A DNA stretch of 64,000 nt. Source: Rhodanobacter sp. DHG33 (GTDB lineage Bacteria; Pseudomonadota; Gammaproteobacteria; Xanthomonadales; Rhodanobacteraceae). This document shows, one piece after another, positions 8,531 through 35,927 of the stretch; position 1 is the stretch's first letter, and every line of letters starts with the position of its first letter. The position numbers were made by a program, and so were the translations under genes. The stretch covers positions 498,530 through 562,529 of the forward strand of contig NZ_JACYXM010000004.1 of assembly GCF_014843005.1 (NCBI RefSeq), given 5' to 3'. The notes beneath the pieces were generated by a model that saw nothing but the letters and a program-made list of their open reading frames with translations, searched no databases and was not told where the DNA came from.

Positions 8531-8540
8531 GGCTGGCTCC

Positions 8541-11227: not shown

Positions 11228-11249
11228 GGCTTTGCCTTCTCCAGTGACA

Positions 11250-11288
11250 GGAGCCGTCAACACCGGCTCCATCGCGCGCAGGGCGCGC
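11250..11288. repeat. double hairpin (REP-like) between the two subunit genes of unit 8
   Basis: Two adjacent inverted repeats fill the 8A-8B spacer. GGAGCCG/CGGCTCC lies at 11250-11256 and 11264-11270, and GCGCGC/GCGCGC at 11274-11279 and 11283-11288. On the minus strand the second reads GTAGGAGCGCGCCC, resembling a dispersed element often seen in Xanthomonadales genomes. The TAG inside it is the stop codon of 8A, so the element abuts or supplies the gene end. Confidence 0.6.
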
Positions 11289-11290
11289 TC

Positions 11291-15111: not shown

Positions 15112-15121
15112 GTCGTCGCCC

Positions 15122-16438: not shown

Positions 16439-16490
16439 TTCCGTCTCTCCTCATTGCATTCCCTTCGCCCGCTGGCGGAAGAAGGGGAAC

Positions 16491-17720: not shown

Positions 17721-17730
17721 GGGTATCTCC

Positions 17731-19089: not shown

Positions 19090-20295
19090 TCACACGCTTC
19101 GCGTCGCCACCACGGGCGGCACGTTCGAGGCACGCAACGCCGGAGCCAGCACGGAGAGCTGGCCCAGCACCCACATGGCGACCGCACTGACCGGCAGGTA
19201 GTACCAGGGCATGCGCGCGATCTCGTAGCTCTGCATCAGGTACAGGTTGATGCCGAAGGCCAGCACCATGCCCAGCACCACACCGGCCGTGCCGAGCAGG
19301 AAGTTCTCGGTCTGGAAGTACTGCAGGATGTGACTGCGGGTAGCCCCCACCGCGCGGCGGATGCCGATCTGCCGACGCCGCTGGCCCACCCAGAAACTGG
19401 TGAGCCCGACGATGCCGAACGCGGTCACCGCCAGCATCACCACGCACACCAGCAGCAGCATCCACACCATGCTGCGGGCATCGGCGAAATAGTCGCCGCG
19501 CATGCCGGCATAGGTCGCGCCATCCACCACCGCACCGACTTCCAGCCGGCCCAGCGCTCGCCGCGCCTCGCGCAGGACGCGCGCGCGATCCTGCGGCGCG
19601 CTGCGCAGCACGTAGTCGCCCATCACCCCGTCCGGATGCAGCGGGAAGAACACGCTGGAATAGCGGCCGCCCGGCCCGCTGAAGTTCGGGTCCTGCGCCA
19701 GCACGTCGGCGATCACGCCGACCACCGTCCAACTATTGCCGTTGGTGTACAGCGTCTTGCCCAACGCGTCCTGCCCCGGCCACAACCGCTGCGCATCGCG
19801 CTGCGTGACCAGCATGACGTGGCCGGTGGAATTGAAATCCTTGAAGCCGCTGTCCGCATATTCGTCGGCGTTGAAGAAACGGCCTTCCAGCAGGCGCAGG
19901 CCCAACGCCTGTTCGCCGCCGCTGCCTAGGAAATAGATCGAAGTGTTCACCGTGGTCTTGCCGTCCGGCGTCGTCGTGAAACTCGACAACGCGGGATTCC
20001 GGTCCAGCGGCATGCTGGTCGCGGCGGCCGCCGCGGTTACCCCGGCGATGCCGCGCAAGGCGGCGAGGTCGCGCGGGATGTCGCTGGCGGCGAGCTTGGG
20101 GTCGGCGCCGTTCACGCTGACCACCGAGATGCCTTGCTCGTCGATCGCGTTCGGCCAGCCGATGTCGTCCAGGCGCTGGCCGATCATGAACACCGCATTG
20201 CACAGCACGGCGCAGGCCAGCGCGATTTCCAGCACGATCAGCATGGCCGGGATGCGGTGCTTGCGCAGGCTGGCGAGTATCGGACGGATTTCCAT
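19090..20295 (-). CDS. MacB/FtsX-type ABC permease, unit 5 B subunit
   Basis: B-type permease, 401 residues, starting MEIRPILASLRKHRIPAML. It is the close duplicate of 6B at the N-terminus, but its periplasmic domain differs (for example DRNPALSSFTTTPDGK where 6B has NNWGWSFGTSPDVS). It shares GLRLLEGRFFNADEYADSG with 6B. The loop is VGQRRRQIGIRRAVGATRSH and the tail VPPVVATRSV. It is 10 bases after 5A with GGAG overlapping that stop. Confidence 0.91.
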   Translation of the reverse strand: MEIRPILASLRKHRIPAMLIVLEIALACAVLCNAVFMIGQRLDDIGWPNAIDEQGISVVSVNGADPKLAASDIPRDLAALRGIAGVTAAAAATSMPLDRNPALSSFTTTPDGKTTVNTSIYFLGSGGEQALGLRLLEGRFFNADEYADSGFKDFNSTGHVMLVTQRDAQRLWPGQDALGKTLYTNGNSWTVVGVIADVLAQDPNFSGPGGRYSSVFFPLHPDGVMGDYVLRSAPQDRARVLREARRALGRLEVGAVVDGATYAGMRGDYFADARSMVWMLLLVCVVMLAVTAFGIVGLTSFWVGQRRRQIGIRRAVGATRSHILQYFQTENFLLGTAGVVLGMVLAFGINLYLMQSYEIARMPWYYLPVSAVAMWVLGQLSVLAPALRASNVPPVVATRSV

Positions 20296-20305
20296 ACGCG
20301 ACTCC

Positions 20306-21610
20306 TCAAGCCGCCTTGAGTTGCGGGGCCGGCGCCACCGCGCAGGCGCGCCACGCGGGCAGCAGGCCGGCGATCAGGCTGGCCGCCAACGCCACCACGA
20401 AGGTGAACAGGAACATCGACAGATCCAGGTGCGCGAGGCCGGCATACTGCGCCGGCTGGTGGCGGATGCCCCACAGCCCCAACTCGGCAAAGACCAGCCC
20501 CAGCACGCCACCGACCATGCCCACGATGGCGGCCTCGACCATGAACTGGACGAAGATGGCCGCGCGCGAAGCACCCAACGCACGGCGCACGCCGATCTCG
20601 CGCGAGCGGCGCAGACATTTCGCCAGCAGCAGGCCCACGGTGTTCACCACGCAGATCAACAGGAAGCCAAACGCCAGGCCGGCCTGCAGGCGGGCATCGT
20701 CCGGTACCACATGCTCGCCGCGCAGCCATTCCATCAGCGCGGGCATCGCCGTACGCGATTTCTGGAAGCGCCCCAGCGCCACTTGCTGCTGCGCATAGTT
20801 GGCGAGGAACCGCCGGTAGGTTGAAACCGCAGCGGCATCGGGCAGCTCCAACCACACGCCCAGCCAGATCGCAGGCGAAGTCTCCAGGTGGTCCATGCCG
20901 GAACCGGGGCCGTAGGACATCATCGCGCTGGGCGTGATGCCGTCGGCACGCGCGCTCTGCAGGGGCACGAACACTCCCTGGCCCTTGCCGTAACTGTGCC
21001 CTCCCAGATGCAGCGCGTAGAAGCGCGGCTGCGGCGCCCAAGGCCGGAGCACGCCGACGATGCGGAAATCGTGGCCCTCGATGCGGATCATGTGGCCCAC
21101 GCTGTCGGCACCGCCGAACAGCTGGTCGTTGAGGAAACCGGCGATCACCGCGACCTGCGCGCGAGCGTCGTCGTCGCCCGCGCTCCAACCCGCGCCGTAC
21201 TGGAACGGCGCATCGAACATCGGAAAGAAATCCGCCGTCGTCATCACGCCGTCCGCATAGAACGGGTTGCCATCCGCCGTCTGCGGCATCACCTTCACCT
21301 GCGACAGCGCCACCGCAGCCTGCCGCTGCGCCCTGCGCGCGCGCAGCAGGTTCATCGCGTCGACGTAGCTCAGCAGCCACGGCATCTTGCCGCTGCGCGA
21401 GAAAGGCTGATTTGCGGGATAGGGGTCCATCTGCGGGTAAAACAGTTGCGCGCTCTTCTGCGGCAGCGGATCGCCGGACAGCAGCCGCAGCACGGCCAGC
21501 GTGGTGATCGTCGCACCGATGCCCAGCGCAAGCGCCACCACCATCAAGGTGGTGAGCACCTTGTTGCGCGCAAGGCTGCGCAATGCCAGGTCAAGGTAGT
21601 AGCCGAACAT
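20306..21610 (-). CDS. MacB/FtsX-type ABC permease, unit 5 A subunit
   Basis: A-type permease, 434 residues from the ATG at 21610; the preceding GTG is too close to the GGAGG site. It starts MFGYYLDLALRSLARNKVL and has SGDPLPQKS after TM1. Unlike its sister 6A it has lost both conserved periplasmic cysteines: MMSYG replaces IECYD and SPAIW replaces APCMW. The loop is LLAKCLRRSREIGVRRALGA and the tail VAPAPQLKAA. Confidence 0.91.
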   Translation of the reverse strand: MFGYYLDLALRSLARNKVLTTLMVVALALGIGATITTLAVLRLLSGDPLPQKSAQLFYPQMDPYPANQPFSRSGKMPWLLSYVDAMNLLRARRAQRQAAVALSQVKVMPQTADGNPFYADGVMTTADFFPMFDAPFQYGAGWSAGDDDARAQVAVIAGFLNDQLFGGADSVGHMIRIEGHDFRIVGVLRPWAPQPRFYALHLGGHSYGKGQGVFVPLQSARADGITPSAMMSYGPGSGMDHLETSPAIWLGVWLELPDAAAVSTYRRFLANYAQQQVALGRFQKSRTAMPALMEWLRGEHVVPDDARLQAGLAFGFLLICVVNTVGLLLAKCLRRSREIGVRRALGASRAAIFVQFMVEAAIVGMVGGVLGLVFAELGLWGIRHQPAQYAGLAHLDLSMFLFTFVVALAASLIAGLLPAWRACAVAPAPQLKAA

Positions 21611-21661: not shown

Positions 21662-22897
21662 TCAAGCCGACCGCGTCGCCACCACCGGCGGCACGTTCGC
21701 GGCCCGCATCGCCGGGCCGAGCACGGCAAGCTGGCCGATGACCCACAGCACCGCGGCACCTACCGGAAAATAGATGCCGGGCAGCCGCGGCAATTCGTAA
21801 TGCACCATCAGGAACAGGTTGATGCCGTAGGCCAGCACCATGCCGAACGCGATGCCGAAGCTGGCGAGCAGGAAGTTCTCGGCCTGGAAATAGCGCAGGA
21901 TGTCGCCCCGCGTCGCGCCCAGTGCACGGCGCACGCCGATGGTGCGCCGGCGCTGCCCCACCCAGAAGCTGGCCAGGCCCACGATGCCCAGCGCGGTCAC
22001 CGTGAGCAGCGCCGCGATCACGCCGACCAGGATGCCGGCCATCGCGCGGTCGTTGGCGAAGAACTCGTGGCGCGCGTCGTCGTAAGTGCGCTTCACCAGC
22101 ACAACGCGATTGGGATCGAGTTGCTTGAGCTTGGCCACGGCGGACTGAAGCACGGTTGCGCGATCCTGCGGCGCCGTGCGGATGACGTAACTGGAACCGT
22201 CGGCCACCGTCATGCGTATGGGCCACACGGTGCTGTACTCCGGCCCCTGGTTCAGGTCGTTCGGCCGCCCCAAGTCGGCCACTACGCCAATGACTCGGAA
22301 CGGCAGGCCCTTGCCGACGTAGATCGTCTGGCCTAGCGCTTCCTGACCGGGCCACAATCGCTGGGCCAGCGCCTGGGTGACGATGATGGTCGAAGGCAGG
22401 TTCTTCAGGTCGCCGTTGTGCAGGTCGGCGATGATGGTGCCGAAATCGGCATATTCGCCATGCTGGAAGTCGCGCCCTTCCAGCAGCCGAACTCCCAGCG
22501 TGGATAGCGCGCCTTCGCCGTAGTACGTGGTGGCTTCTAGCGTGTCCTGCTGCTGTTGCGGGCTTAGCCGGATGCCGCTGTTCGACGCCCCGCCGTCACT
22601 GAAGGGCAGCTGGTTGATCACCGCCACCTGCTTCACGCCGGGAATCAGCCGCAATGCGGCCAGATCGGTCTGCGACTGCGCCATGGCCTCCGTGCTCTTG
22701 CCGATGCGGCCCAATTGGATCTGCACCAACTCGTGCTCGGCGACGCCGCTGGGAAGATCCATGCGTTGCAGGCGTTGGCCGATCAGGAACACCGCGTTGC
22801 AGACGATGGCGCAGGTCAGGGCGATTTCCAGGACCAGCAGCCACGCCGTGGTCTTGTGCCGCCGCAGAGTGGAGAAGATGGGCCGCAATTCGATCAT
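21662..22897 (-). CDS. MacB/FtsX-type ABC permease, unit 4 B subunit
   Basis: B-type permease, 411 residues, starting MIELRPIFSTLRRHKTTAW. TM1 includes LVLEIALTCAIVCNAVFLIG. The periplasmic part contains a glutamine run (LSPQQQQDTLEA) not seen in the others, and GVRLLEGRDFQHGEYADFG. The loop is VGQRRRTIGVRRALGATRGD and the tail VPPVVATRSA. The 7-base spacer from 4A is the shortest in the array. Confidence 0.91.
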   Translation of the reverse strand: MIELRPIFSTLRRHKTTAWLLVLEIALTCAIVCNAVFLIGQRLQRMDLPSGVAEHELVQIQLGRIGKSTEAMAQSQTDLAALRLIPGVKQVAVINQLPFSDGGASNSGIRLSPQQQQDTLEATTYYGEGALSTLGVRLLEGRDFQHGEYADFGTIIADLHNGDLKNLPSTIIVTQALAQRLWPGQEALGQTIYVGKGLPFRVIGVVADLGRPNDLNQGPEYSTVWPIRMTVADGSSYVIRTAPQDRATVLQSAVAKLKQLDPNRVVLVKRTYDDARHEFFANDRAMAGILVGVIAALLTVTALGIVGLASFWVGQRRRTIGVRRALGATRGDILRYFQAENFLLASFGIAFGMVLAYGINLFLMVHYELPRLPGIYFPVGAAVLWVIGQLAVLGPAMRAANVPPVVATRSA

Positions 22898-22904
22898 GGC
22901 GTCC

Positions 22905-24212
22905 TCAGTTGCTCTTCAATTGCAGGGCCGGCGTCACCTGGCAGGCGCGCCATGCAGGCAACAGGCCGGCCAGGAGACTCGCGCCCAACGCCAGCAGGAA
23001 GGTGATTAGCAGCATCACGGGATCGAGATGCGCCAGCGGCGCGTATTCCGCCGGTTGCCGCCGCACCAGCCACAGGCCGATGAGCGCGAGCAGCAGCCCG
23101 CCCATGCCGCCGACCAATCCGACCACGCCGGACTCCACCAGCAGTTGCGCGAACAACGCACTACGCGAGGCGCCCAGCGCACGACGCACGCCAAGCTCGC
23201 CGGCGCGGCGCAGGAACTTCGCCAGCATCAGGCCCACGGTGTTCACCAGGCACACCAGCAGGAAGCCGAAGGCCAGCCCGGTCTGCAGACGCACGTCGTC
23301 GGGCACCACCATGTTGTAGTCCAGCCACTGCATCACGTTGCGCAGCTGCACGTTCGGCGGCCGGCCGAAACGACCCAGCGCCTTCTGCTGCGCGGAGTAG
23401 TTGACGAGGAATTCCTTGTAGGCAGCAGCCTTGGACGGGCTGTCCAGCTGCACCCAGAACTGCAGCCACACGCAGGGCGAGTTGTGATCGGGCGTATTTC
23501 CGCCGCCGCCGTTGCCCCAACAATTGACGCTGCCGTCATGGATCATGCCCAGATCCTGCGAAGTGGACAGCGGCACGAACACGCCTTCATTCTCGTTGTA
23601 GCTCTTGCGGTTGAGATCGTAGAAGTGCGGGTTGGGGTTCCAGTCGCCGATCACCCCGACGACGCGGAAGGCCTCGCCGTCCAGCCGCAGCGTCTTGCCG
23701 GTGCTGTCGCCGCCGCCGAAGACCTTGTCGTTGAACTGGCTGCTGATGACGGCGACCCGCGCATGCGCATCGTCCTCCGCGTCGCCCCAGCCGTGGCCGT
23801 ACTCGAACGGCACGCCGAACATCGGAAAGAAGCCGGACGTGGTGTAGCGCGCAGTCTGGTAGAACGGGTCGAGCGTGCTGTTGTCCGGTTGCACCGCCAC
23901 GCTGCCGCCGGTCATCAGCGCCTGTTGGTCCGCGCGCTTCGCCTGCAGCAGGTTCATGCCGTCGATCCAGGTCATCTGGTCCATCGGATCCGTCTTGCCC
24001 GGCAGGTAGCCCTGGCTCTCGCGCGGATCGATCTGCGGGTAGTACAGCGACCCGCTGCGACCCGGCAGCGGGTCGCCGGACAGCACGTGCAGCACGGTGA
24101 GCGTCGTCATCGACGCACCGATGCCCAGCGCGATCGCCAGCACCATCAGCGCGGTGAGCGCCTTGTTGCGCTTGAGGCTGCGCAGTGCCAGGTCGAAGTA
24201 GTAGCCGAACAC
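22905..24212 (-). CDS. MacB/FtsX-type ABC permease, unit 4 A subunit (GTG start)
   Basis: A-type permease, 435 residues. The frame stays open far upstream, but the GTG at 24212 gives the family start VFGYYFDLALRSLKRNK and has GGAGAT before it. SGDPLPGRS follows TM1. The periplasmic domain has TTSGFFPMFGVPFEYGHGW and the Cys pair (SVNCWG and SPCVW), with a glycine run between them. The loop is MLAKFLRRAGELGVRRALGA and the tail VTPALQLKSN. Confidence 0.9.
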   Translation of the reverse strand: MFGYYFDLALRSLKRNKALTALMVLAIALGIGASMTTLTVLHVLSGDPLPGRSGSLYYPQIDPRESQGYLPGKTDPMDQMTWIDGMNLLQAKRADQQALMTGGSVAVQPDNSTLDPFYQTARYTTSGFFPMFGVPFEYGHGWGDAEDDAHARVAVISSQFNDKVFGGGDSTGKTLRLDGEAFRVVGVIGDWNPNPHFYDLNRKSYNENEGVFVPLSTSQDLGMIHDGSVNCWGNGGGGNTPDHNSPCVWLQFWVQLDSPSKAAAYKEFLVNYSAQQKALGRFGRPPNVQLRNVMQWLDYNMVVPDDVRLQTGLAFGFLLVCLVNTVGLMLAKFLRRAGELGVRRALGASRSALFAQLLVESGVVGLVGGMGGLLLALIGLWLVRRQPAEYAPLAHLDPVMLLITFLLALGASLLAGLLPAWRACQVTPALQLKSN

Positions 24213-24259: not shown

Positions 24260-25459
24260 TCACACGCTGCGTGTAGCCACTACCGGCGGCACATGCGATG
24301 CGCGCAGCGCAGGGCCAAGAACAGCCAGTTGCCCGAGCAACCACAACGCCAACGCGCCCACGGGAAAATAGGCAAGCGGCAGGCGCGGCAACTCGTAATG
24401 CGACATCAGCGCCAGGTTGATCGTGTACGCCAACACCATGCCGAGCCCGATGCCGCCGCTGACGATCAGGAAGTTCTCGGTCTGGAAGTAGCGCAGGATG
24501 TCGCCCCGCGTGGCACCGATGGCGCGGCGAATGCCGATCTGCCTGCGCCGCTGCGCCACCCAGAAACTGGCGAGGCCGCCGATGCCCAGCGCGGTGACGA
24601 TCAGCAGCGCGGTACATACCGTCGCCAGCAGCCAGGCCATCGCGCGATCGCTGGCGAAGTAGTTTCCGCGCAGGCCGGGATAGGTGCCCTTGTCGTTGAT
24701 CAGCATCTGCGGATTGAGCGCTGCCAGTTTCGCGGCCGCATCGCGCAGCACGCGATCGAGCGCCGACGGATCGGCACGCAACACATACAGCGACGACAGC
24801 TCGGCGCTCGGCCTGGCCGCGAAAAGCGCCGTGTACTCGGAAGCGTTGCCGCGCAATTCGCCGCGCACCATGTGGTCGACCACGCCGATCACCTGATAGC
24901 GCTTCGTACCGATCCAGAACGCTTGCCCCAACGCGGACTGGCCCGGCCACAGACGCTCGGCCACGGCCCGCGTGACGATCATCGAGGGCGAGTGCGGCAA
25001 CCACGTATCCACGCCGGCGTAGTCGTCGGCACTGAAATCGTGCCCCTCCACCAGCTTGATCCCCAGCGCGTGCAGGTAGCCCGGCGAGCCGACCATCAAT
25101 TCCATGTTCGGCCCCCGGTGCTTGCCGTCGGCATCCATGGACGGATTGAAATTCATGTCGTCGTTCGACAGCGGCAGCGAAGCCACCACCACCGCCGACT
25201 TCACGCCGGGAATGCCGCGCAGCGCGGCCAGGTTGCTTTCGGTCACCGGAGTCGCATCGGCGCCGGACACGCCATCGGTCTTCAGCCACACCAGCTCGCT
25301 TTCGGCGAGACCGGTGTGCACCTGCATCTCGCTCAACCGCTGGCGGATCATGAACACCGCGTTGCACAGGATCGCGCAGGCCACGGCGATCTCCAGCATC
25401 AACAGGCCGGCTGCCAGCTTGTGCCGGCGCAGCGAGGAAAGGATGGGCAGCAATTCCAT
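24260..25459 (-). CDS. MacB/FtsX-type ABC permease, unit 3 B subunit
   Basis: B-type permease, 399 residues, the shortest of the set. The ATG at 25459 gives MELLPILSSLRRHKLAAGL in line with the other B starts; the longer frame overlaps 3A and is rejected. GAGG overlapping the 3A stop codon is 11 bases away, a weak site. The periplasmic domain has YLHALGIKLVEGHDFSADDY. The loop is VAQRRRQIGIRRAIGATRGD and the tail VPPVVATRSV. Confidence 0.9.
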   Translation of the reverse strand: MELLPILSSLRRHKLAAGLLMLEIAVACAILCNAVFMIRQRLSEMQVHTGLAESELVWLKTDGVSGADATPVTESNLAALRGIPGVKSAVVVASLPLSNDDMNFNPSMDADGKHRGPNMELMVGSPGYLHALGIKLVEGHDFSADDYAGVDTWLPHSPSMIVTRAVAERLWPGQSALGQAFWIGTKRYQVIGVVDHMVRGELRGNASEYTALFAARPSAELSSLYVLRADPSALDRVLRDAAAKLAALNPQMLINDKGTYPGLRGNYFASDRAMAWLLATVCTALLIVTALGIGGLASFWVAQRRRQIGIRRAIGATRGDILRYFQTENFLIVSGGIGLGMVLAYTINLALMSHYELPRLPLAYFPVGALALWLLGQLAVLGPALRASHVPPVVATRSV

Positions 25460-25472
25460 GGTGACTGGCGCC

Positions 25473-26777
25473 TCAATGGCTCTTGAGTTGCAGGGCGGGC
25501 GGGATCTGGCAGGCGCGCCACGCGGGCAGCAGCCCGGCCACCAGGCTGGCGGCGATGGACAGCGCGAAGGTGACCAGGAACATGCGCAGGTCGAGATGCG
25601 CCAGCGCGGCATAATCCGTGGGGGAACGCCGCACGGCCCACAATCCCGTGAGAGCCAGCAGGAGGCCGAGCATGCCGCCGGCCACGCCGACCAGCGCCGC
25701 TTCGGTCAGCATCTGGGCGAACACTGCGCGGCGCGAGGCACCCAATGCGCGACGCACGCCGATCTCTCCCGAACGTCGCAGAAACTTCGCCAGCAACAAA
25801 CCCACCGTATTGATCAGGCATACCAGCAAAAAGCCGAACGCCACCCAGGTCTGCAGGCGTACGTCGCTGGGCACCACCTGGAGGTAACCCAGCCAATCCA
25901 TCAAGTCATGCAGTCCGGTGAGCGGCTTGCCATTGAACTGGAAACGGCCCAGCGCCTTCTGCTGCTCGGAATAGCTCACGAGATAGTCGCGATACGCCGA
26001 CACCTTGGCGGGCGTGTCCAGTTCCACCCAGTACTGCAGCCACAGGCAGGGTTGGTTTTCCAGATGCACCTGATCGGTGAGCTGCTCCCAGCAGTCCAGC
26101 GCATTGCCTTCGATGCCGAGGTCGGCGAGATCGCGCGAGGTCGAGAACGGGATGAACACGCTGTCGCCCGACGCGAAGGCGCCATGGCCGTAGAGGTCGT
26201 AGTAGCGCGGCTGCGGCTGCCAATGCTGTAGCACGCCGACGATGCGGAAATCCCACTTGTCCAGGCGGATGTTGCGGCCGATGCTGTTGCCGCCGCCGAA
26301 CAGCTTGTCGTTGAGCTCCTGCGAAATCACCGCCACGCGGGCGCGGTTGCCGTCCTCGGTCGGCGTCCATCCCGCGCCGTAACGGAACGGCACATCGAAC
26401 ATCGGGAAGAAATCGGTGGTGGTGGCAACGGTGGATAGCGACATCGGCCGCGCGCCGGCCTGCGGCCCGAACACCTTGATGTTGTTGCTCACCACGATGG
26501 CCTGCCGGTCGGCGCGATGCTCGCGCAGCAGGTTGGTGGCGTCGGTATAGGTAAAGCCGATTTCCGGTTCGGTCTTCGAGCGGGTGTCCGGCATGACCTG
26601 CGGATAGAACAGCTGCGCGCTCTTGCCCGGTATCGGATCACCCGACAGCAGGTGCAGCACCGTCAGCGTGGTGATGCACGCACCGATGCCCAGTCCGATG
26701 GCCAGCACCATCAACGACGTGAGGATCGGTGTGCGCTTCAGGCTGCGCCATGCCAGATCGAGGTAATAACCGAACAC
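25473..26777 (-). CDS. MacB/FtsX-type ABC permease, unit 3 A subunit (GTG start)
   Basis: A-type permease, 434 residues. The GTG at 26777 gives VFGYYLDLAWRSLKRTPIL and has GGAGATAT upstream; an ATG at 26828 would add 17 unrelated residues read through a hairpin. SGDPIPGKS follows TM1. It contains TTDFFPMFDVPFRYGAGW and the Cys pair (ALDCWE and QPCLW). The loop is LLAKFLRRSGEIGVRRALGA and the tail IPPALQLKSH. Confidence 0.9.
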   Translation of the reverse strand: MFGYYLDLAWRSLKRTPILTSLMVLAIGLGIGACITTLTVLHLLSGDPIPGKSAQLFYPQVMPDTRSKTEPEIGFTYTDATNLLREHRADRQAIVVSNNIKVFGPQAGARPMSLSTVATTTDFFPMFDVPFRYGAGWTPTEDGNRARVAVISQELNDKLFGGGNSIGRNIRLDKWDFRIVGVLQHWQPQPRYYDLYGHGAFASGDSVFIPFSTSRDLADLGIEGNALDCWEQLTDQVHLENQPCLWLQYWVELDTPAKVSAYRDYLVSYSEQQKALGRFQFNGKPLTGLHDLMDWLGYLQVVPSDVRLQTWVAFGFLLVCLINTVGLLLAKFLRRSGEIGVRRALGASRRAVFAQMLTEAALVGVAGGMLGLLLALTGLWAVRRSPTDYAALAHLDLRMFLVTFALSIAASLVAGLLPAWRACQIPPALQLKSH

Positions 26778-26837: not shown

Positions 26838-28091
26838 TCAGGCCGCCCGCGTCGCCACCACCGGCGGCACGTTGGAGGCGCGGCGCGCGGGGCTGAACAC
26901 CGCGCCCTGGCCCAGCAGCAGCACCACCACCACGCCGGCCAGTACGTAGAGCACGGGCATGCGGTCCATCTCGTAGTGCTGCATCAGCAGCAGGTTGAGG
27001 CCGATGGCCAATGCCACGCCGACCACTGCGCCGATACCGGCGATCAGCAGGTTCTCCATCTGGAAGTAGTGCAGGATGTCCACCTTGCGCGCGCCCAGTG
27101 CGCGGCGCACACCGATCTGGCGATGCCGCTGACCGACCCAGAAGCTGGTGAGGCCCACGATGCCCGCCGCGGTGACGCCGAGCAGGATCAGGCAGATCAC
27201 GCCCATCAGCGCGGCCATGCCGACATCGGCGCGATAGGCATCGCTGCGTATGTCGGCGAACGATTTGACGCTGTCATCATCGAGCACACGCAGAGGATTG
27301 ACCTTGTACAGCAAGGGCGTGGTGGTCTTCATCGCCGCCAGCAAGCGACCCGGTTTGGCACGCACGGCATAGCTCGAGAAATTGCCGTTGAGGCGCACCG
27401 GCTCGATCGTCGCGTTCCAGGCGAAGGTGCCGGCCCAGCTGCCCGTCGACGGCACCTGCAGGCGTTCGACCACGCCGATGATGGTGGTAGGCGTGCCGCT
27501 GCCGTCGAGGTAGACGATCTTGCCCACCGCATCGCCCTTCGGGAAGAGCTTGTCGGCCAGCGCCTTGGTCACGATCACCACCGCGGGCTCGCTGGTGTTG
27601 CGGAAACCCTTGTTGGTGACGTCGCCCGCATTGAAGTCGCGTCCGGCGACCAGGTGCAGGCCCAGCGTGCGCACGAAATTCTCATCGCCGAAGTAGTAGG
27701 TGGTCCGCGCATTCCCGTCGAGCAGCTTGGCGTCCGCCGCGAGCGACATCGCGCCATTTGAGCTCTGGTTTAGCAGCGGCAGCGAGTTCGTCGGCGTCAC
27801 CGAAGCCACGTCCGGCATCGCACGCAGCGCGGCGAGATCCTCGCGCTGCATGGCGTCCATTTTCTGGATGCTGTCCGCATCGTCGCCGGTGGGCGCACCC
27901 ACCCATTGCTGGGTAACGAGGTACAGGTTCTGCTCGTCGAGGCCGGTGGGGCGGTTCACGCGCTGGACGCGCTGCCCGATGATGAAGACCGCGTTGCAGA
28001 CGATCGCCAGCGTCAGCGCGATCTGCAGTGCGATCAATACCACGCCCGCCTTGTGCCTGCGCAGCGCCGCGATCATGGGATGCAGTTTCAT
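26838..28091 (-). CDS. MacB/FtsX-type ABC permease, unit 2 B subunit
   Basis: B-type permease, 417 residues, starting MKLHPMIAALRRHKAGVVL. TM1 (LIALQIALTLAIVCNAVFII) is nearly the same as in 1B, so units 1 and 2 form a sub-group. The periplasmic region has TLGLHLVAGRDFNAGDVTNKG. The loop is VGQRHRQIGVRRALGARKVD and the tail VPPVVATRAA, the only tail ending RAA. GGAGAG overlaps the 2A stop ten bases upstream. Confidence 0.91.
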   Translation of the reverse strand: MKLHPMIAALRRHKAGVVLIALQIALTLAIVCNAVFIIGQRVQRVNRPTGLDEQNLYLVTQQWVGAPTGDDADSIQKMDAMQREDLAALRAMPDVASVTPTNSLPLLNQSSNGAMSLAADAKLLDGNARTTYYFGDENFVRTLGLHLVAGRDFNAGDVTNKGFRNTSEPAVVIVTKALADKLFPKGDAVGKIVYLDGSGTPTTIIGVVERLQVPSTGSWAGTFAWNATIEPVRLNGNFSSYAVRAKPGRLLAAMKTTTPLLYKVNPLRVLDDDSVKSFADIRSDAYRADVGMAALMGVICLILLGVTAAGIVGLTSFWVGQRHRQIGVRRALGARKVDILHYFQMENLLIAGIGAVVGVALAIGLNLLLMQHYEMDRMPVLYVLAGVVVVLLLGQGAVFSPARRASNVPPVVATRAA

Positions 28092-28101
28092 GGCGCTCTC
28101 C

Positions 28102-29427
28102 TCAATTGCTCTTCAGCTGCCACGCGGGTTGCACGCGCGAGGCCCGCCAGGTGGGATACAGACCGGCCAGCACGGTGGCGATCACCGCCACCAGCAGGGT
28201 CATGGCCAACAGCGACACGTCCAACTTCGCCAGCGCGGCGATGTCCTTCGGCAGCACCCATCCCACGCAGGCCACGCCCGCGCCGGTCAGTAGCAGACCG
28301 AGCACGCCTCCCGCCGCGCCGACCATGCCCGCCTCGGTGAGGAACTGCGCGTACACCGCGCCGCGCGGCGCGCCCAATGCACGACGCACACCGATCTCGC
28401 CGCTTCGACGCAGGAACTTCGCCAGCAGCAGACCCGCCGTGTTGACCAGGCAGACGATCAGCAGCCCCAGCGCCACCAGCAGCGATACCTTGGTGTCGTC
28501 CGGCACCACGTGTTGGGAGTTCAGCCACGCGGGCAGGTCGCGCAACTCGTATTTGGGCGGCCAGTTGAAGCGGCCAGCCTGTTGCTGCTGGCGCATGTAG
28601 CCATCGAGGTAATTCTTGTAGCTGTCGACATCGGCGGAGCTGTCCAACTCCACCATGTAGGAGATCCACACGCATGACGACTGCTGCAGGCCGACGAAGC
28701 CGGAGCCCTTGGGGATCTCGTTGCAGTTGGTGTTGCCATCGTTGGGCATGCCCACGTCGATGGCGGTATTGAACGGCAGGAACACGTCCTCGGCGCCATC
28801 GCCGACGAAACCGCCGGTGTTCACCACGTCGTAGTAGCGCGGCTGCGGGTTCCAGCGGTCGAGCACGCCGGCCACCCGGTAATCCTTGCCCTCGATGTTG
28901 ACGCTCTTGCCCACGCTGTTTATGTCGCCGAACAGCTTCTGGTTGAGCTTGTCGCTGAGCACCACCACGTGGGAACGGTTGGTGTCGTCCTGCGCGCTCC
29001 AGCCGCTGCCGTACTTGAACGGCGCCTCCACCATCGGGAAGAACTCGCTGAACACGGCGTGGCCGGTGACGTTGATCGGATGCTTGGCGGCATCCGCCGG
29101 CACCACCGACGGCGATACCTGGTACATCGCCGACTGCAGCTTGCCGCGATGGTCGCGCATCAGCGCCACCGCGTCGGTGTAGTCGAACGCGTCGGAAATG
29201 TCGGTGTAGCCACCCTTCTTACGGCTGTCCGGCCCCCAGATGTCGAGCTGGGGCACGAACAGTCTGGACGACTTCCACGGGATCGGATCGCCCGACACGG
29301 CGCGGAACACCGACCATGTGGTCATCGAGGCAGCCACGCCGAAGCCAATGGCGAGCACCATCAGCAGGGTGAGGCCGGGACTGCGCTTTAGGCTGCGCAG
29401 GGCGAGGTCTAGGTAGTAGGCGAACAT
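28102..29427 (-). CDS. MacB/FtsX-type ABC permease, unit 2 A subunit
   Basis: A-type permease, 441 residues, starting MFAYYLDLALRSLKRSPGL with GGAGAGAC upstream. It shares SVFRAVSGDPIP after TM1 with unit 1 A, where others have LTVLxLLSGDP. The periplasmic Cys pair is present (NTNCNE and SSCVW). The loop is LLAKFLRRSGEIGVRRALGA and the tail VQPAWQLKSN. Confidence 0.91.
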   Translation of the reverse strand: MFAYYLDLALRSLKRSPGLTLLMVLAIGFGVAASMTTWSVFRAVSGDPIPWKSSRLFVPQLDIWGPDSRKKGGYTDISDAFDYTDAVALMRDHRGKLQSAMYQVSPSVVPADAAKHPINVTGHAVFSEFFPMVEAPFKYGSGWSAQDDTNRSHVVVLSDKLNQKLFGDINSVGKSVNIEGKDYRVAGVLDRWNPQPRYYDVVNTGGFVGDGAEDVFLPFNTAIDVGMPNDGNTNCNEIPKGSGFVGLQQSSCVWISYMVELDSSADVDSYKNYLDGYMRQQQQAGRFNWPPKYELRDLPAWLNSQHVVPDDTKVSLLVALGLLIVCLVNTAGLLLAKFLRRSGEIGVRRALGAPRGAVYAQFLTEAGMVGAAGGVLGLLLTGAGVACVGWVLPKDIAALAKLDVSLLAMTLLVAVIATVLAGLYPTWRASRVQPAWQLKSN

Positions 29428-29583: not shown

Positions 29584-30822
29584 TCACACGGAGCGCGTGG
29601 CCTCCACCGGCGACACGCGCGAAGCGCGCAGCGCCGGCGCCAGCACGGCGCCCTGCCCCAGCAACAACAGCACGATCACCCCGACGCCCACGTAGGTCAT
29701 CGACATCTGGCTCATCTCGAAGCGGGTTTTCGTCCAGAGGTTGAAGGCGATCGCAAGCACGGCGCCCAGCGCCACGCCTGCCGTGCTGATGAGGAAATTT
29801 TCGGTGAGGAAATAAGCGAGGATGTCGCGCTTCTTGGCGCCCAACGCACGCCGCACACCGATCTGCCTGCGGCGCTGGCCCACCCAGAAGCTGGTGAGGC
29901 CCACGATGCCCGCGGCGGTGATCGCCAGCAGCACCACGCAGATGATGCCCATCAGGATGGCCATGCCGCGGTCGCTGTCGTAGACCATGTGACGGATGGT
30001 GGCGTAATCCAGAACGCCGTCTTTCGGGTCGATGATGCGCATGTGGCTCTGCGCGATCAGCGCCTTGGGCGCTTCGCGCATGGCTTCGGCAAGCTGGCCG
30101 GGCTTGGCGCGCACGACGTAGAAGAGACCGCCCGAAAAAGCCGCCCGTATCGGCCAGATCAACGCCTGCCCGGCATAGGCGTTGGCCCATCGATCCACGC
30201 CCTGCCGCTGCAAGGGGTCGACAATTCCGATGATCGTGCTCGGCGTGGTGCCCATCGCGTAGAAGCTCTTGCCCAGTGCATTGCCACCGGGGAACAGCTT
30301 GTCGGCCAGCGCCTTGGTCACGATCACCACGGGCGGCGTGATCGCTTGCTGGGTACCCATCACCATCACTTCTTCAGGGCGGAAATTGCGACCCACGATC
30401 AACTTCGCGCCCAGTGTGTCGATAAAATGTTCGTCGCCGGTATACACCGCCGCATCCGTGGTCGGCTTGGTCTGGTCAGGCGTCATGCTGATGTAGTTGT
30501 CCCAGCCACCGCCTTTCAGCGGATAGCCGCTGGCCGGAGTCGCATCGCGCACGGCAGGCAGTTGCCGCAGTGCGAGCATGTCGGCTTTCACCTGTGTATC
30601 GACTTGCGCTGTCGGCCAGTCGGCTGCCCACTGGTTGCGGATCACGAAGACGCTGGATTCGTCCACGCCGCTGGGTTCGGACAGGTTGGCCAGGCGCTGG
30701 CGGATGATGAACAGCGCGTTGCACACGATGGCCAGCGTCAACGCGATCTGCAACGCGATCAGCAGCGTGCCCGCCTTGTGCCGGCGCAGCGCAACGAGGA
30801 TGGGCCTGATCTGTATGTTCAT
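29584..30822 (-). CDS. MacB/FtsX-type ABC permease, unit 1 B subunit
   Basis: B-type permease, 412 residues, starting MNIQIRPILVALRRHKAGT. TM1 is LIALQIALTLAIVCNALFII. The periplasmic domain has GAKLIVGRNFRPEEV and VVIVTKALADKLFPGGNA. The loop is VGQRRRQIGVRRALGAKKRD and the tail VSPVEATRSV, where Glu replaces the usual second Val. GGAGAG overlaps the 1A stop and lies four bases before the ATG. Confidence 0.91.
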   Translation of the reverse strand: MNIQIRPILVALRRHKAGTLLIALQIALTLAIVCNALFIIRQRLANLSEPSGVDESSVFVIRNQWAADWPTAQVDTQVKADMLALRQLPAVRDATPASGYPLKGGGWDNYISMTPDQTKPTTDAAVYTGDEHFIDTLGAKLIVGRNFRPEEVMVMGTQQAITPPVVIVTKALADKLFPGGNALGKSFYAMGTTPSTIIGIVDPLQRQGVDRWANAYAGQALIWPIRAAFSGGLFYVVRAKPGQLAEAMREAPKALIAQSHMRIIDPKDGVLDYATIRHMVYDSDRGMAILMGIICVVLLAITAAGIVGLTSFWVGQRRRQIGVRRALGAKKRDILAYFLTENFLISTAGVALGAVLAIAFNLWTKTRFEMSQMSMTYVGVGVIVLLLLGQGAVLAPALRASRVSPVEATRSV

Positions 30823-30832
30823 GGCGCTCTCC

Positions 30833-32146
30833 TCAGCCCGCCTTCAATTGCCAGGCCGGCTGCACGTGCGCCGCACGCCATGCCGGATAGAACGCCGCCA
30901 GCACGGTGGCGGCGATGGCGACGATGAGAGTCAGTCCCATCAGCGAGAAATCGACCTGCGCCAGCCTGGCGATCTCCGGCTGGAACAGGATGCCCACGCC
31001 GGACACGCCCAGGGCGGTGAGCAACAGACCCAGCACGCCGCCGGCAAGGCCTACTGTGCCGGCCTCGATCAGGTACTGGGCGTAGATTTCGCTGCGCGTG
31101 GCGCCCAGGGCCCGACGCACACCGATCTCCCCGGCGCGGCGCATGAACTTCGCCAGCAGCAGGCCGATGGTGTTAACCAGACAGATCAGGAAGAAACCCA
31201 GCGCCACCATCAGCGAGATGCTGCTTTCCGGCGGCACCACCTGGTAGTAGTCCAGCCACTGCACCACATCGCGCAGGCGCACATTGGGCGCCCAGTTGAA
31301 GCGGCCGGCTTGCTGCTGCTCGGCGGCATAGTTGGTGAGAAAGTTGCGGTAGCTCGCGACCTCGGCGGGGCTGTCCAGCTCGACCCAGGGGGAGATCCAC
31401 ACGCAATTGCTCTGCGTGAAGCCTTCCCAGGTGGTGTAGCTGAGCTTGCCGCGGCAACTGTTGCGGCCAACGGGATACATCTTCAGGTCCATCGCACGAG
31501 TGAACGGCATGTAGATATCCGGCTCACCGGCGAAGTAGTTGTTGTCGAACAAGTCGTAGAAGCGCGGTTGCGGATTCCAATGACTGGTGACGCCGATGAC
31601 GCGATAATCGTGGCCGCCAAGATTGATCGTGCGCCCCACGCTGTTCTCGCCGGCGAACACCTTGCGGTTGAGCTCGCCGCTGATGACCACGTCGGCGGCG
31701 CGCGCATCGTCGTCCTGCGCGCTCCAGCCGCCGCCATAGCGGAACGGCACTTCGAACATGGCGAAGAAGTCGCTGCCCACGGCATAGCCGTTCGCGTTCA
31801 ACGGCAGCTCGCGGTCGCCACCCGGCATGACCGACATCATGACCTGGTACAGCATGGTCTGGCGCTTCGCCGCGTGCGCCCGCAGCAGCGCCATCGCGTC
31901 CACGTAATCGAGTGCATCCGGCGGTTCGTTGTCTTTCAGATTCTGCTGCGGCCCCCAGTTGTCCACCTTCGGCACAAACAACTGTGCTGACTTGTCCGGA
32001 ATCGGATTGCCCGACACGGCGCGGAACACCGAGTAGGTGGTCATCGACGCGGCCACGCCGAAACCGATCGCCATCACCATCAACGCGGTAAGCGCGGGAT
32101 TGCGGCGCAGGCTGCGCAAGCCGAGTTGGAAGTAGTAGGCGAACAT
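30833..32146 (-). CDS. MacB/FtsX-type ABC permease, unit 1 A subunit
   Basis: A-type permease, 437 residues, first permease after the TolC gene. The start MFAYYFQLGLRSLRRNPAL was chosen by alignment to the other A subunits; no strong Shine-Dalgarno is present, and an ATG 33 bases upstream is possible. SVFRAVSGNPIPDKS follows TM1. The Cys pair is present (RNSCRG and SNCVW). The loop is LLAKFMRRAGEIGVRRALGA and the tail VQPAWQLKAG. Confidence 0.9.
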   Translation of the reverse strand: MFAYYFQLGLRSLRRNPALTALMVMAIGFGVAASMTTYSVFRAVSGNPIPDKSAQLFVPKVDNWGPQQNLKDNEPPDALDYVDAMALLRAHAAKRQTMLYQVMMSVMPGGDRELPLNANGYAVGSDFFAMFEVPFRYGGGWSAQDDDARAADVVISGELNRKVFAGENSVGRTINLGGHDYRVIGVTSHWNPQPRFYDLFDNNYFAGEPDIYMPFTRAMDLKMYPVGRNSCRGKLSYTTWEGFTQSNCVWISPWVELDSPAEVASYRNFLTNYAAEQQQAGRFNWAPNVRLRDVVQWLDYYQVVPPESSISLMVALGFFLICLVNTIGLLLAKFMRRAGEIGVRRALGATRSEIYAQYLIEAGTVGLAGGVLGLLLTALGVSGVGILFQPEIARLAQVDFSLMGLTLIVAIAATVLAAFYPAWRAAHVQPAWQLKAG

Positions 32147-32230: not shown

Positions 32231-33574
32231 TTACTGCAGCAACCCGTTCACCGCTTCCATGTCGTGCACATCGATGGTTCCTGCGGCCTGTTTGAGCAGC
32301 AGCTTGTCGAGGACGAACTGGTACTTGGCCGCGGCGTATTGGCTCTGCGTCTCGGCCAGGTTCTGGATCGCGAAAACCACGCTGGTCAGGGTCTGCGTGC
32401 CGATGGAATAGCCCGCGCGCATCGAGGTCAGCGACTTCTGCGCGGCGTCCACCGCATCGCGCGCACTGCCCACCTGATCGATGCCGTCGTTGACCAGGTT
32501 GAAATAGTTGGCGACATCGCGCGCGGCTTGGCGACGCTGGCTTTCCAGCGTGCCGAGGTCGGCGTCGCGCTGATAAAGCGCCTGTTTGACCTGCGCATGG
32601 ACCAGGCCGCCACTGAACAGCGGAATGTTGAGCGTGAGGCCTACCGTGGTGGTGGCCGGTCCGTAGGCGGACGTACCCGGCATCGCGTTCGACCACTGGC
32701 CGAACTTGTTGTAACCCACCCCCGCGGTGAGCGTGGGCAGGTGACCGGCGCGCGCCGCCGACACCTTGCGCTCATCGCTGGTCACGGCGTAGCGCGCGGC
32801 GAGCACGGTGGGGTTGGTCTTCATCGCCGCGTCCACCCAGGTCTGCTCGTTGTTCGGCTGCGGCGCCTGCATGGGCATGTCGTCGCGCAACTTCTTCAGC
32901 TCACCGGTCGGTTTGCCGGTGATCTGTTCCAATGCGCGGCGCGCGTCCTTGAGGTTGTCCTCCGCGCTGATCCGCATACCCTTGATGTACAGGTAGTACG
33001 ACTTCGACTGGTTGACGTCAGCCTCCATCGACAGGCCGCTCTTGAAGCGGGCGGAAGTCTGTTCGAATTCCGTCTTATAGCCGTCCTCGTAAGCACGGTC
33101 GATGTCCAGCATGTCCTGTGCCTGCAGCACGTTGAAATAAGCCGTAGCCACGCGCACGTAGAGGTTCTGCAACGCGGCCTGGTAGGTCTGCTCCTGCGAA
33201 TCGCTGGCCGCGCTGGCCGCACGCAGGTTGGCGATGGCGGACAGGTCGATGATCGACTGGCTGAGGTTGCCCGTGAGATCGCGATCGCGCGTGTGGCCAG
33301 AACCGCCCGTTTCCACGATGTTGCCGTTGCTGCTGGTGGTCTGGCTGCCGCCGCCGTGGATCTGGTCCATCTGCAGCCCGGCGGACAACTGCGGCAGCAG
33401 CGCCGCGCGCGCCACCGGCACGCCTTCCGCCACCAGAAGCCGTTGCGCATCGGCGGTGGCCAGCACCGGATCGTTGGCAACGGCTTGCCGGTAGGCATCC
33501 ATCAAGTCCTCGCAATGCCCCGCGAACGGGGCAGCGGCGAGCAGTAGCAGTGCGGGCAACAGCTTCAGGCGCAT
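32231..33574 (-). CDS. TolC-like outer-membrane efflux protein
   Basis: Outer-membrane channel of the export system, 447 residues, close to TolC length. A signal peptide spans about residues 1-21 (LLPALLLLAAAPFAGHC). The mature start EDLMDAYRQAVANDPVLATA and the motif SIIDLSAIANLRAA match the two OEP repeats. A later motif, LNIPLFSGGLVHAQVKQA, is typical of the second repeat. It lies between the ATPase (44-base gap) and the first permease (84-base gap), on the same strand. It is the only outer-membrane factor in the locus, so all nine permease pairs would depend on it or on a TolC encoded elsewhere. Confidence 0.92.
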   Translation of the reverse strand: MRLKLLPALLLLAAAPFAGHCEDLMDAYRQAVANDPVLATADAQRLLVAEGVPVARAALLPQLSAGLQMDQIHGGGSQTTSSNGNIVETGGSGHTRDRDLTGNLSQSIIDLSAIANLRAASAASDSQEQTYQAALQNLYVRVATAYFNVLQAQDMLDIDRAYEDGYKTEFEQTSARFKSGLSMEADVNQSKSYYLYIKGMRISAEDNLKDARRALEQITGKPTGELKKLRDDMPMQAPQPNNEQTWVDAAMKTNPTVLAARYAVTSDERKVSAARAGHLPTLTAGVGYNKFGQWSNAMPGTSAYGPATTTVGLTLNIPLFSGGLVHAQVKQALYQRDADLGTLESQRRQAARDVANYFNLVNDGIDQVGSARDAVDAAQKSLTSMRAGYSIGTQTLTSVVFAIQNLAETQSQYAAAKYQFVLDKLLLKQAAGTIDVHDMEAVNGLLQ

Positions 33575-33618: not shown

Positions 33619-34344
33619 TCAGGCCTGGTTCGCGTTGGCGCGCGCAGCGGACACGCTGGCGTGGAAGCGCGGGTCTTCGGAAAGATCCACCACCTGGCCG
33701 TCGATGATGTGCACGTTGCGCTGCGCGCGTGCGGCCAGCTCGGGATCGTGGGTCACCATCACGATAGTGGCGCCGTCGCGGTGGATCTCCTCCAGCAGCT
33801 CCATCACGCCGCGGGCCATCTGCGTGTCGAGGTTGCCGGTGGGTTCGTCGGCGAGCAGCAGGCGCGGCGAGCCGGCGAGCGCACGCGCAATGGCCACGCG
33901 CTGCTGTTGGCCACCGGAGAGTTCAGCGGGATAGTGCTTGTAGCGCGAAGCCAGGCCCACGCGCTCGAGAGCGTCCATGATGCGCTGCTTGCGTTCCGGC
34001 GCCTTCATGCCGCGGTAGCGCAGCGGCACTTCCACGTTGTCGAACACGTTGAGGTCGGGGATCAGGTTGAACGCCTGGAAGATGAAGCCGATCTTCTCGT
34101 TGCGGATCTTCGAGCGCGCGTTGTCGTTGAGCTGGCTCACTTCGATGCCGTCGAGGTGGTACTCGCCGCCGGTGAAGGTTTCCAGCAGGCCGGCGATGGT
34201 GAGGAAGGTGGTCTTGCCCGAGCCGGACGGCCCGGTGACGGCGACGAATTCGCCTTCCTTCACGTCGATGTTGAAATCGCGCAGCGCGTAGGTCTCCACC
34301 ACTTCGGTGCGGTAGACCTTGGACAGGTGGGTCATCTTCAGCAT
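33619..34344 (-). CDS. MacB/LolD-type ABC transporter ATPase
   Basis: Cytoplasmic ATPase of the exporter, 241 residues, full length for the LolD/MacB-NBD family. Walker A GPSGSGKT is at residues 38-45, the Q-loop at FIFQAFNL (88-95), signature LSGGQQQR at 142-149, Walker B LLLADEP with catalytic Glu167, and the H-loop His199 in VTHD. The C-terminal tail is short. It is a stand-alone protein, whereas classical MacB fuses ATPase and permease. It is the only ATPase gene among 18 permease genes, so it is the likely energiser for all of them. GAGGAA precedes the ATG at 34344. Confidence 0.95.
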   Translation of the reverse strand: MLKMTHLSKVYRTEVVETYALRDFNIDVKEGEFVAVTGPSGSGKTTFLTIAGLLETFTGGEYHLDGIEVSQLNDNARSKIRNEKIGFIFQAFNLIPDLNVFDNVEVPLRYRGMKAPERKQRIMDALERVGLASRYKHYPAELSGGQQQRVAIARALAGSPRLLLADEPTGNLDTQMARGVMELLEEIHRDGATIVMVTHDPELAARAQRNVHIIDGQVVDLSEDPRFHASVSAARANANQA

Positions 34345-34499: not shown

Positions 34500-35771
34500 T
34501 TACCTGCTAATCGCGACGCGCTGTGCGCCCTTGAAGCTGTCGGTGCCGGAGATCACGATGCGGTCGCCTTCCTTCAGGCCCTGCAGGATCTCCACCTTGT
34601 CGATGCTGCTTTCGCCGACGCGGATCGGGGTCTTGGTGGCGATGCCGTCCGTGACCACATAGGCGTAGCTGCCGCCGGATTCGTCGATGAAGGAGCCACG
34701 CTGCACGGTGAGCACGCTGTCGCGCTTGTCGAGCAGGATGCGCACGGACAGGCGCTGGTTCTGGCGCAGCTCCTTCGGCGTGCTGCCTTCGAAGCGCACG
34801 CGTGCGGCCACTTCGCCGTTGACCACTTCGGGCGAGATCGCGCTGACCAGGCCCTTCCAGGTGGTGCCGTTGCCGCTGATCTCGCCGCCCATGCCGATGG
34901 CAAGGTCGCGGGCGAAGCTCTCGGGCACCTGCACTTCCACTTCCAGGGCGGTGAGGTCGATCACGCTCAGCAGCTGCGCGTCCTTCGCCACCGTGGCCAC
35001 CGGTGCGACGAACAGCTGGCCGACCTGACCGTCCACCGGCGACTTCACGTTGAGGTCGTCCACTTGGCGCTGCAGGTCCTGCACCACCAGCATCTGGTTG
35101 TCGTGCGCCAGCTTCTTCGACTGGATGTTGAAGTTGAGGCTGTCGTTGTTCATGCCGAGATCGGACTTGGCATGCGACAACGCGATGTTGGCCTTCTCCA
35201 GCGCATCCTTCGACTGATCCACCTCGACGCCGGTAGCGGCGCCGGCGGCGAACGCCTTCTGCTCGCGGTCGAGATTAGTCGCCGCGCTCTTGGCGTCGAT
35301 CTGTGCGTTGTCGTAGGCCTTCTGCAGGTCGCCGCGTTTGGTGCGCGCATCCACCTGCGCCTGCAGGTAGTCCGCCTGCATGCCATCGGCCTTGGACTGC
35401 TCCTGCGCCAGCTTGTTGCGCAGCTCGGGGCTGTCCACGATGGCCAGCACCTGGCCCTTCTTCACCACATCGCCGGCGTGCACGAGCAGCTTCACGGCGC
35501 CGTTGTAGGTGGCGTAGAGCGTCGGGCTGTTCGCCGCCACGACCTTGCCTTCAGCGGCGATGTCGCGCACGAACGGCCCGCGCTCGACGGTGGCGAAGGC
35601 CAGCCGCGATGCGCTCACCGAGGCATCGGCGGAGAACAGGCGAAGGATGCCCGGCATGGCGAGCGCCAGCACCACCAGCAAGGCCACGCCACCCCCGATG
35701 AACAGCAGGCGGCGCTTGCGGTTGGGCTTGACCTCGACGATGCGGTCTTGAGCGGAAGTATCGCGGATCAT
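34500..35771 (-). CDS. MacA-like periplasmic adaptor (HlyD family)
   Basis: Membrane-fusion protein of the exporter, 423 residues. A single N-terminal TM anchor lies at about residues 22-43 (LLFIGGGVALLVVLALAMPGIL). The lipoyl half VKLLVHAGDVVKKGQVLAIV is followed by a long coiled-coil hairpin (about 115-240), the second lipoyl half (VKSPVDGQVGQLFVAPVATV), beta-barrel and membrane-proximal domains. Such proteins bridge MacB-type permeases to TolC. It is the first gene of the 32-kb locus, 45 bases from a sigma-54 promoter; AAGGGA precedes the ATG. It is the only adaptor for nine permease pairs. Confidence 0.93.
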   Translation of the reverse strand: MIRDTSAQDRIVEVKPNRKRRLLFIGGGVALLVVLALAMPGILRLFSADASVSASRLAFATVERGPFVRDIAAEGKVVAANSPTLYATYNGAVKLLVHAGDVVKKGQVLAIVDSPELRNKLAQEQSKADGMQADYLQAQVDARTKRGDLQKAYDNAQIDAKSAATNLDREQKAFAAGAATGVEVDQSKDALEKANIALSHAKSDLGMNNDSLNFNIQSKKLAHDNQMLVVQDLQRQVDDLNVKSPVDGQVGQLFVAPVATVAKDAQLLSVIDLTALEVEVQVPESFARDLAIGMGGEISGNGTTWKGLVSAISPEVVNGEVAARVRFEGSTPKELRQNQRLSVRILLDKRDSVLTVQRGSFIDESGGSYAYVVTDGIATKTPIRVGESSIDKVEILQGLKEGDRIVISGTDSFKGAQRVAISR

Positions 35772-35815
35772 CGTGTGTTCCCTTGCCGCGGACAGTGCGG
35801 CCCCGATCCGTATTC

Positions 35816-35831
35816 AGCAATCCGCGTGCCA
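35816..35831 (-). promoter_or_regulatory. sigma-54 (-24/-12) promoter of the export locus
   Basis: On the minus strand the sequence is TGGCACGCGGATTGCT: the -24 element TGGCACG, four bases, then TTGCT, with exactly ten bases between GG and GC. This matches the RpoN consensus TGGCACG-N4-TTGCW. The predicted transcript start is near 35805, leaving about 34 bases before the adaptor ATG. An NtrC-family activator is encoded at the other end of the same locus. Confidence 0.88.
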
Positions 35832-35895
35832 AGCGCAATAATTGAAAAAACACACTGTTTTTCAGTTATTTGCCACGACGCCTTGCCGCGACTTT

Positions 35896-35927
35896 GGTGT
35901 CCGCGGACACCGGGCGGACAGCGGACA
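35896..35927. promoter_or_regulatory. candidate upstream activator site for the NtrC-family regulator
   Basis: A perfect 16-base palindrome GGTGTCCGCGGACACC (35896-35911) is followed by two more direct copies of its half-site, GCGGACA, at 35914-35920 and 35921-35927. The centre lies about 100 bases upstream of the predicted start, the usual distance for activators of sigma-54 promoters. Assignment to the activator at 5869-7209 is inference. Confidence 0.7.

Follow-up and report, generated by a model that had tools for sequence, protein, structure and literature searches.

A predicted sigma-54 switch before a multi-permease exporter locus in Rhodanobacter recurs before permease pairs and small membrane peptides in the Rhodanobacteraceae

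How might a ~31.8 kb exporter locus (positions 4015-35771) of Rhodanobacter sp. DHG33 be controlled, and does the same control reach genes elsewhere? We analyzed a 64-kb stretch of DNA carrying this locus, hereafter the window, in which an earlier note had placed a consensus sigma-54 promoter with exact GG-N10-GC spacing before the adaptor gene. The -24/-12 box, TGGCACGCGGATTGCT (35816-35831, minus strand), showed 0 mismatches to the consensus TGGCACGNNNNTTGCW, with the GG-N10-GC spacing intact, and conformed to the TGGCACG-N4-TTGCW pattern of sigma-54 promoters. It was the sole exact match in the 64 kb, for which 0.013 exact matches are expected from the base composition. Since matches with up to two mismatches were fewer than expected (11 compared to 18.5), only the exactness of the box is notable. 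A search for rpoN gave one match above the cut-off in the genome (E 1.7e-136). The observation of a predicted promoter at this position was thus confirmed as real and beyond chance.

The note had also described a perfect 16-base palindrome with two extra GCGGACA half-sites, all of which were present. The predicted activator site, GGTGTCCGCGGACACC, is an exact palindrome at 35896-35911. Both extra half-sites (35914-35920 and 35921-35927; TGTCCGC on the minus strand) share one orientation and lie further upstream, the nearer one 11 bp, or one helical turn, before the first half of the palindrome. The 12-base palindrome core, 66 bp from the -24 box, has no second exact copy in the window (0.007 expected from the base composition). 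When the 3.76-Mb genome was scanned for further sites, the core was found exactly at 4 places, with 0 for the reversed control and ~0.44 expected. Cores with one mismatch were hardly enriched (17 compared to 12 for the control). As this barely exceeds the control, counts were restricted to exact sites or to sites followed by a box.

Adaptor matches, counting remote relatives, were detected at E ≤ 0.001 in 60 of the 61 genomes searched, the nearest named adaptors being those of Rhodanobacter sp. DHB23 (95%) and 7MK24 (94%), and the 30 best orthologues were fetched for upstream comparison. At all 30 loci both elements are kept: the box is exact in 26 and has one mismatch in 4, and the palindrome core is exact in 28 and has one mismatch in 2, with gaps of 56-69 bp. 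Together with the single rpoN, this bears out the proposal of a sigma-54 promoter and activator site for the exporter. Among 50 adaptor loci of named genomes, several from the same genomes as the 30 fetched loci, the box (up to two mismatches) was found at all 50 and the palindrome (up to one mismatch) at 48; two of an original 52 had been left out, L167 for having no upstream sequence and L170 for its 26% identity. The palindrome test was failed by L162, where the upstream DNA ends short of the expected palindrome position, and by L156, where the scored box, 29 bp from the start, may be due to chance. A combined pattern (palindrome, 50-80 bp, TGGCAN6TTGCW) was present in 29 of the 61 relatives, all 29 of which belong to the family. 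Among 233 family genomes it occurred in 174, covering 22 of 26 genera, and the reversed control never matched. We also noted that, in G050 (L183), a weak promoter-like box is separated from the adaptor gene by a membrane-like reading frame of 42 residues and that, in G036 (L086), a site and box stand before a transposase-like gene (judged by eye) with no close regulator or adaptor match in the genome, perhaps a relic.

The gap between palindrome and box, compared over 129 distinct spacers, fell into two classes about one helical turn apart, 53-56 or 63-69 bp. Within the spacer of the window, 25 bp after the palindrome core, lies an IHF-like element, CAAATAACTGA (35862-35872, minus strand); CAA-N4-TTG is the core of the IHF consensus. 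Motif counts were compared to shuffles of single bases, which, with sites from related genomes, overstate the significance of the half-site and spacer contrasts. Of 123 distinct sites, 72 had TGTCCG 9-13 bp ahead of the palindrome (0.35 on average in shuffles), and of the 129 spacers, 42 contained CAA-N4-TTG (shuffled mean 1.6) and 76 the looser YAA-N4-YTGA on either strand (shuffled mean 3.2). At least one TGTCCG occurred within 40 bp upstream in 114 of the 123 sites. Of the 58 forward-strand YAA-N4-YTGA motifs, 48 begin 24-25 bp past the palindrome core, which is also where the element of the window lies. Sigma-54 promoters that act with NtrC-type enhancer-binding proteins and IHF are known from the glnA and nifH type. 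The arrangement here is like these in its -24/-12 box, upstream activator sites, IHF-like motif in between, and NtrC-type regulator and kinase, but differs in its target, an export regulon with peptides. By comparison, then, the predicted element is a sigma-54 switch of the textbook type, and its value lies in the regulon that it would reveal, above all a peptide family and a modular permease bank.

The locus behind the switch encodes, on the minus strand throughout, an exporter of the MacB/FtsX type in which nine split permease pairs accompany a single adaptor, ATPase and TolC. First come an HlyD/MacA-like periplasmic adaptor (34500-35771; Pfam HlyD_D23 and HlyD_3; among NCBIfam models, above the cut-off for the broad TIGR01730 alone), an ABC ATPase (33619-34344; Pfam ABC_tran) and a TolC-like outer-membrane channel (32231-33574; Pfam OEP in two stretches). 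The permease pairs, each with an A and a B gene, are pair 1 at 29584-32146 (A 30833-32146, B 29584-30822), pair 2 at 26838-29427 (A 28102-29427, B 26838-28091), pair 3 at 24260-26777 (A 25473-26777, B 24260-25459), pair 4 at 21662-24212 (A 22905-24212, B 21662-22897), pair 5 at 19090-21610 (A 20306-21610, B 19090-20295), pair 6 at 16491-19038 (A 17731-19038, B 16491-17720), pair 7 at 13897-16438 (A 15122-16438, B 13897-15111), pair 8 at 9995-12598 (A 11291-12598, B 9995-11227) and pair 9 at 7298-9884 (A 8541-9884, B 7298-8530). Pfam searches run on 8 of the 18 permeases (A and B of pairs 1 and 9, A of pairs 4 and 7, B of pairs 3 and 6) found MacB_PCD and FtsX in all 8. An alpha/beta hydrolase of S33-like type (12681-13841; Pfam Hydrolase_4 and Abhydrolase_1) lies within the permease array, between pairs 7 and 8. 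As the note had it, the ~32-kb locus ends with an NtrC-family response regulator (5869-7224) and a membrane histidine kinase (4015-5400; Pfam HATPase_c, HAMP just under the cut-off), and a 108-codon reading frame stands between the two (5411-5737). This frame, which has no Pfam match and a signal-like start by eye, may encode a secreted protein and is a possible sensory partner. Beyond the kinase, positions 1128-3511 of the window (minus strand) carry a gene that by eye resembles an adaptor gene, and one for an efflux protein of the outer membrane (Pfam OEP); the two look like a separate efflux system.

We compared the exporter with known systems. It is like MacAB-TolC in its HlyD-type adaptor, MacB_PCD and FtsX permease and TolC-like channel, but its ATPase is a separate gene and its permeases are A/B pairs in nine copies; the score for MacB (NF007826, ATPase fused to permease) was under the cut-off. 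For the darobactin exporter DarBCD (NF038007, NF038008, NF038010), DarD was the best NCBIfam model for the ATPase and the adaptor also matched DarC, with scores below the DarB, DarC and DarD equivalog cut-offs (254.6 compared to 375; 75.9 compared to 450); in contrast to DarBCD, the permease here is split and occurs in serial duplicates. In the one pair tested, the A and B permeases match the first and second half of ADOP (TIGR03434), respectively, with scores of 168 and 179 compared to a cut-off of 622. ADOP is a fused duplicate, whereas two separate genes occur here, together with adaptor, ATPase and TolC.

The further sites indicate that the predicted switch would control a regulon and not only an operon. 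In the DHG33 genome itself, the switch was found at three other places. On C33, with the same 16-base box, it precedes a permease pair that stands alone; on C40, a 28-residue peptide with a serine hydrolase of the beta-lactamase fold next in line; and on C11, where the palindrome has one mismatch, two adjacent peptides of 67 and 55 residues. The fourth exact palindrome (C11:35994; L001 1501-1512) precedes pcm-like and TolC genes, beside a TetR-like gene (by eye), with no matching sigma-54 box, an arrangement that would suit an operator of a repressor or sigma-70 system, the -24/-12 match elsewhere being fortuitous. We regard such a reading as extremely improbable, given that 174 of the 233 family genomes, and never the control, combine palindrome and box at a fixed spacing in phase with the helix. 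In G064 and G068 (L272, L274), such Pcm-TolC units carry both box and site. The same gene classes recur in relatives within the Rhodanobacteraceae, a family associated with soil and plants. In addition, the switch precedes a relative of the array's hydrolase at L085 (71% identity) and, at L075, a peptide whose neighboring downstream gene we take to encode an M3-like peptidase. Another 20 sites were hand-picked, mostly without adaptor sites, from G062, G064, G068, G126, G132 and G134, the last three of one genus; all 20 precede permease pairs (8), peptides (8), the adaptor (2) or TolC units (2), with L260 and L265 being permease pairs. Within the family, site and promoter at a fixed distance thus offer a sequence-level handle that predicts the regulon. 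Our searches of open-access literature found no paper that describes the regulon or assigns this role to the site TGTCCGCGGACA, and no mention of an ABC transporter, efflux or permease in PMC3162934.

The peptides behind the switch form an unnamed family of 28-73 residues with the consensus MK[FY]E..ML..LF..C...C....G.M, then a tail with C.LP.DG..CP. By eye they have one long hydrophobic stretch, and the longer forms carry a conserved C-terminal cysteine pair. They evolve as coding sequence (dN/dS ~0.46, 30 peptides), and four MK(F/Y)E peptides searched against Pfam and NCBIfam gave no family match, the only hit being a sub-threshold DUF6083 (E 0.051). A profile search detected the peptides in 143 of 233 family genomes and 19 of 26 genera. 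All 30 peptide loci fetched from these 143 genomes, 9 found through the switch and 21 independently of it, have box and palindrome with at most one mismatch each. Peptides and regulator were both present in 138 of the 233 genomes, peptides only in 5, regulator only in 72 and neither in 18 (Fisher p 6e-5, for related and so not independent genomes). We also observed a 28-residue membrane peptide directly before a hydrolase gene, behind the same switch, at L069, L071, L256, L266 and L269, where the hydrolase genes start alike (the PF00144 beta-lactamase fold was tested for L069), and two 28-residue peptides in a row at L264.

The note had matched the regulator at the end of the locus to the promoter, an inference that gained support. 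By Pfam, the regulator has the receiver, sigma-54 AAA+ and Fis-type HTH domains of the NtrC family, and its sigma-54 contact loop reads GAYTGA at residue 234; the F-to-Y change in the GAFTGA loop is tolerated. Among 19 rows compared, the window's own included, GAYTGA or GAFTGA was found in 17 and GAYTSA in two distant ones (L179, L181), and the recognition helix [LM]G[LM]SRQALYRR[ML] is conserved in all 19. At 15 distant adaptor loci whose genomes encode the regulator, 4 of them within the family and 11 elsewhere in the order, a box with up to two mismatches was present in 14 and an exact palindrome in 5, and none of the 4 distant loci examined in genomes without the regulator had a box or site. 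These observations support, by inference, the locus regulator as the probable activator binding TGTCCGCGGACA.

Alternatively, the promoter could be sigma-54 dependent and respond to another NtrC-family protein, with the locus regulator controlling something else. A search of the genome gave at least 26 NtrC-like matches, and the regulator gene has its own leader. Across three genera, g5 (10 genomes), g43 (16) and g17 (2), the exact pattern was absent from all 28 genomes, yet 26 have the regulator; a weaker box and half-sites were present in G018 (g5) and G030 (g17). Another activator is conceivable given the GAYTSA loops of L179 and L181 and the similar recognition helix of a paralogous regulator. 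This paralogue, however, has GAYTDA instead of GAYTGA and is therefore perhaps not a sigma-54 activator, and on C11 neither it nor its adaptor gene has a close site upstream, the adaptor gene lacking a close box as well. With regulator and switch also co-occurring at the distant loci, we judge activation by a different protein distinctly unlikely and favor the locus regulator. The paralogous exporter locus (L088; G000:C11:270500-290000) has ~805-residue permease frames along with this NtrC-like regulator.

A self-reinforcing loop, in which one 32-kb transcript from the promoter reaches the regulator gene, had also been proposed. The genes lie collinearly, most gaps between them measuring 7-63 bp except for two of 110 and 156 bp and the hydrolase stretch, and terminator-like sites were rarer than in shuffles (3 compared to 5.8 and 5 compared to 9.8, on both strands and excluding 14001-17999). 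Closing the loop would require ~28 kb of read-through. However, the region before the regulator in 28 genomes held no box and no palindrome with fewer than two mismatches, the best being boxes with two mismatches in L067 and L209 and a palindrome with two in L206. What precedes the regulator instead is a leader block of ~40 bp, ATGGCAACCTTTTCG..GCATCC.., present in all 24 family genomes looked at (23 by pattern, L222 by eye), 10 of which lack a preceding B-permease end. In the window, this conserved leader (ATGGCAACCTTTT...GCATCC...; 7225-7262, minus strand) may serve as promoter or leader of the regulator itself, or else encode a short overlapping frame (MATF..GAAS..). Moreover, among 45 genomes, regulator and adaptor lie >1 Mb apart in two (G022 and G039) and on different contigs in 5, which are draft assemblies. 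Given the lack of a switch before the regulator, its conserved leader and the >1 Mb separation, a positive loop is unlikely as a conserved design, and the claim was not supported; that the 32-kb transcript closes such a loop in the window seems to us improbable. In 38 of the 45 genomes, with both genes within 60 kb on one contig, adaptor and regulator are 3.4 to 35.6 kb apart; the permease bank thus expands and shrinks while the promoter stays.

We consider it very probable that the element combines a sigma-54 promoter with activator sites arrayed upstream, which the regulator and IHF would operate and which would have the exporter and regulon as output. The kinase (4015-5400) would phosphorylate the NtrC-type regulator (5869-7224), whose dimers would bind the palindrome and the half-site one turn upstream, and a bend at the IHF-like motif would bring the regulator to the sigma-54 polymerase waiting at 35816-35831. 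The resulting output would be the tripartite MacB/FtsX-type exporter core with its serially duplicated permease pairs, to which the same switch elsewhere would add small membrane peptides, hydrolases, Pcm-TolC units and permease pairs standing alone. The core of the pump, its alternative permeases and the peptides would then be expressed together.

Such a regulon would link dispersed permease pairs, and peptides that lack annotation, to a single pump, making the question of the exporter's cargo directly testable. According to the accessible part of PMC11928319, dssA of Rhodanobacter R179 is an ABC transporter permease gene in a 17-gene operon, is required for suppression of plant immune responses, and has orthologues in 74.7% of Xanthomonadales genomes at a threshold of 30% identity; promoter control of dssA is not mentioned in that part. 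Genus, gene type and operon size fit a locus of the present kind, a likeness by description only, and dssA may belong to this kind of locus, which we take as a lead only. If it does, the regulator that probably governs a trait of the plant microbiota, and candidates for the cargo, would be named. We tentatively suggest, as a possibility short of a probable one, that the regulon, extending across the family, couples the pump core to expandable, interchangeable permease pairs and to cysteine-pair peptides, acting as exported signals or in feedback to the kinase, and that it is the regulated secretion system behind the dssA-dependent immune suppression.

Finally, we considered the leader of the adaptor gene. 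From the adaptor start codon at 35771, consensus geometry predicts transcription from near 35805 and a leader of ~34 nt, which would fold into a 5´-terminal hairpin, GCCGC-ACUGUCC-GCGGC (35785-35801, minus strand), close to the predicted start and just before the ribosome-binding site. For a computed consensus fold of 30 leaders, hand-chosen from 66 distinct ones with those lacking a clear stem omitted (for example L026, L030, L032, L145, L156 and L165), 91.6% of cells pair and 5 of the 6 pairs have changes on both sides, consistent with compensatory change. Single leader stems are weak, with 13% of shuffles reaching the observed score. Some stem of at least 4 pairs occurs in 61 of the 66 distinct leaders, and the hairpin perhaps protects the long mRNA.
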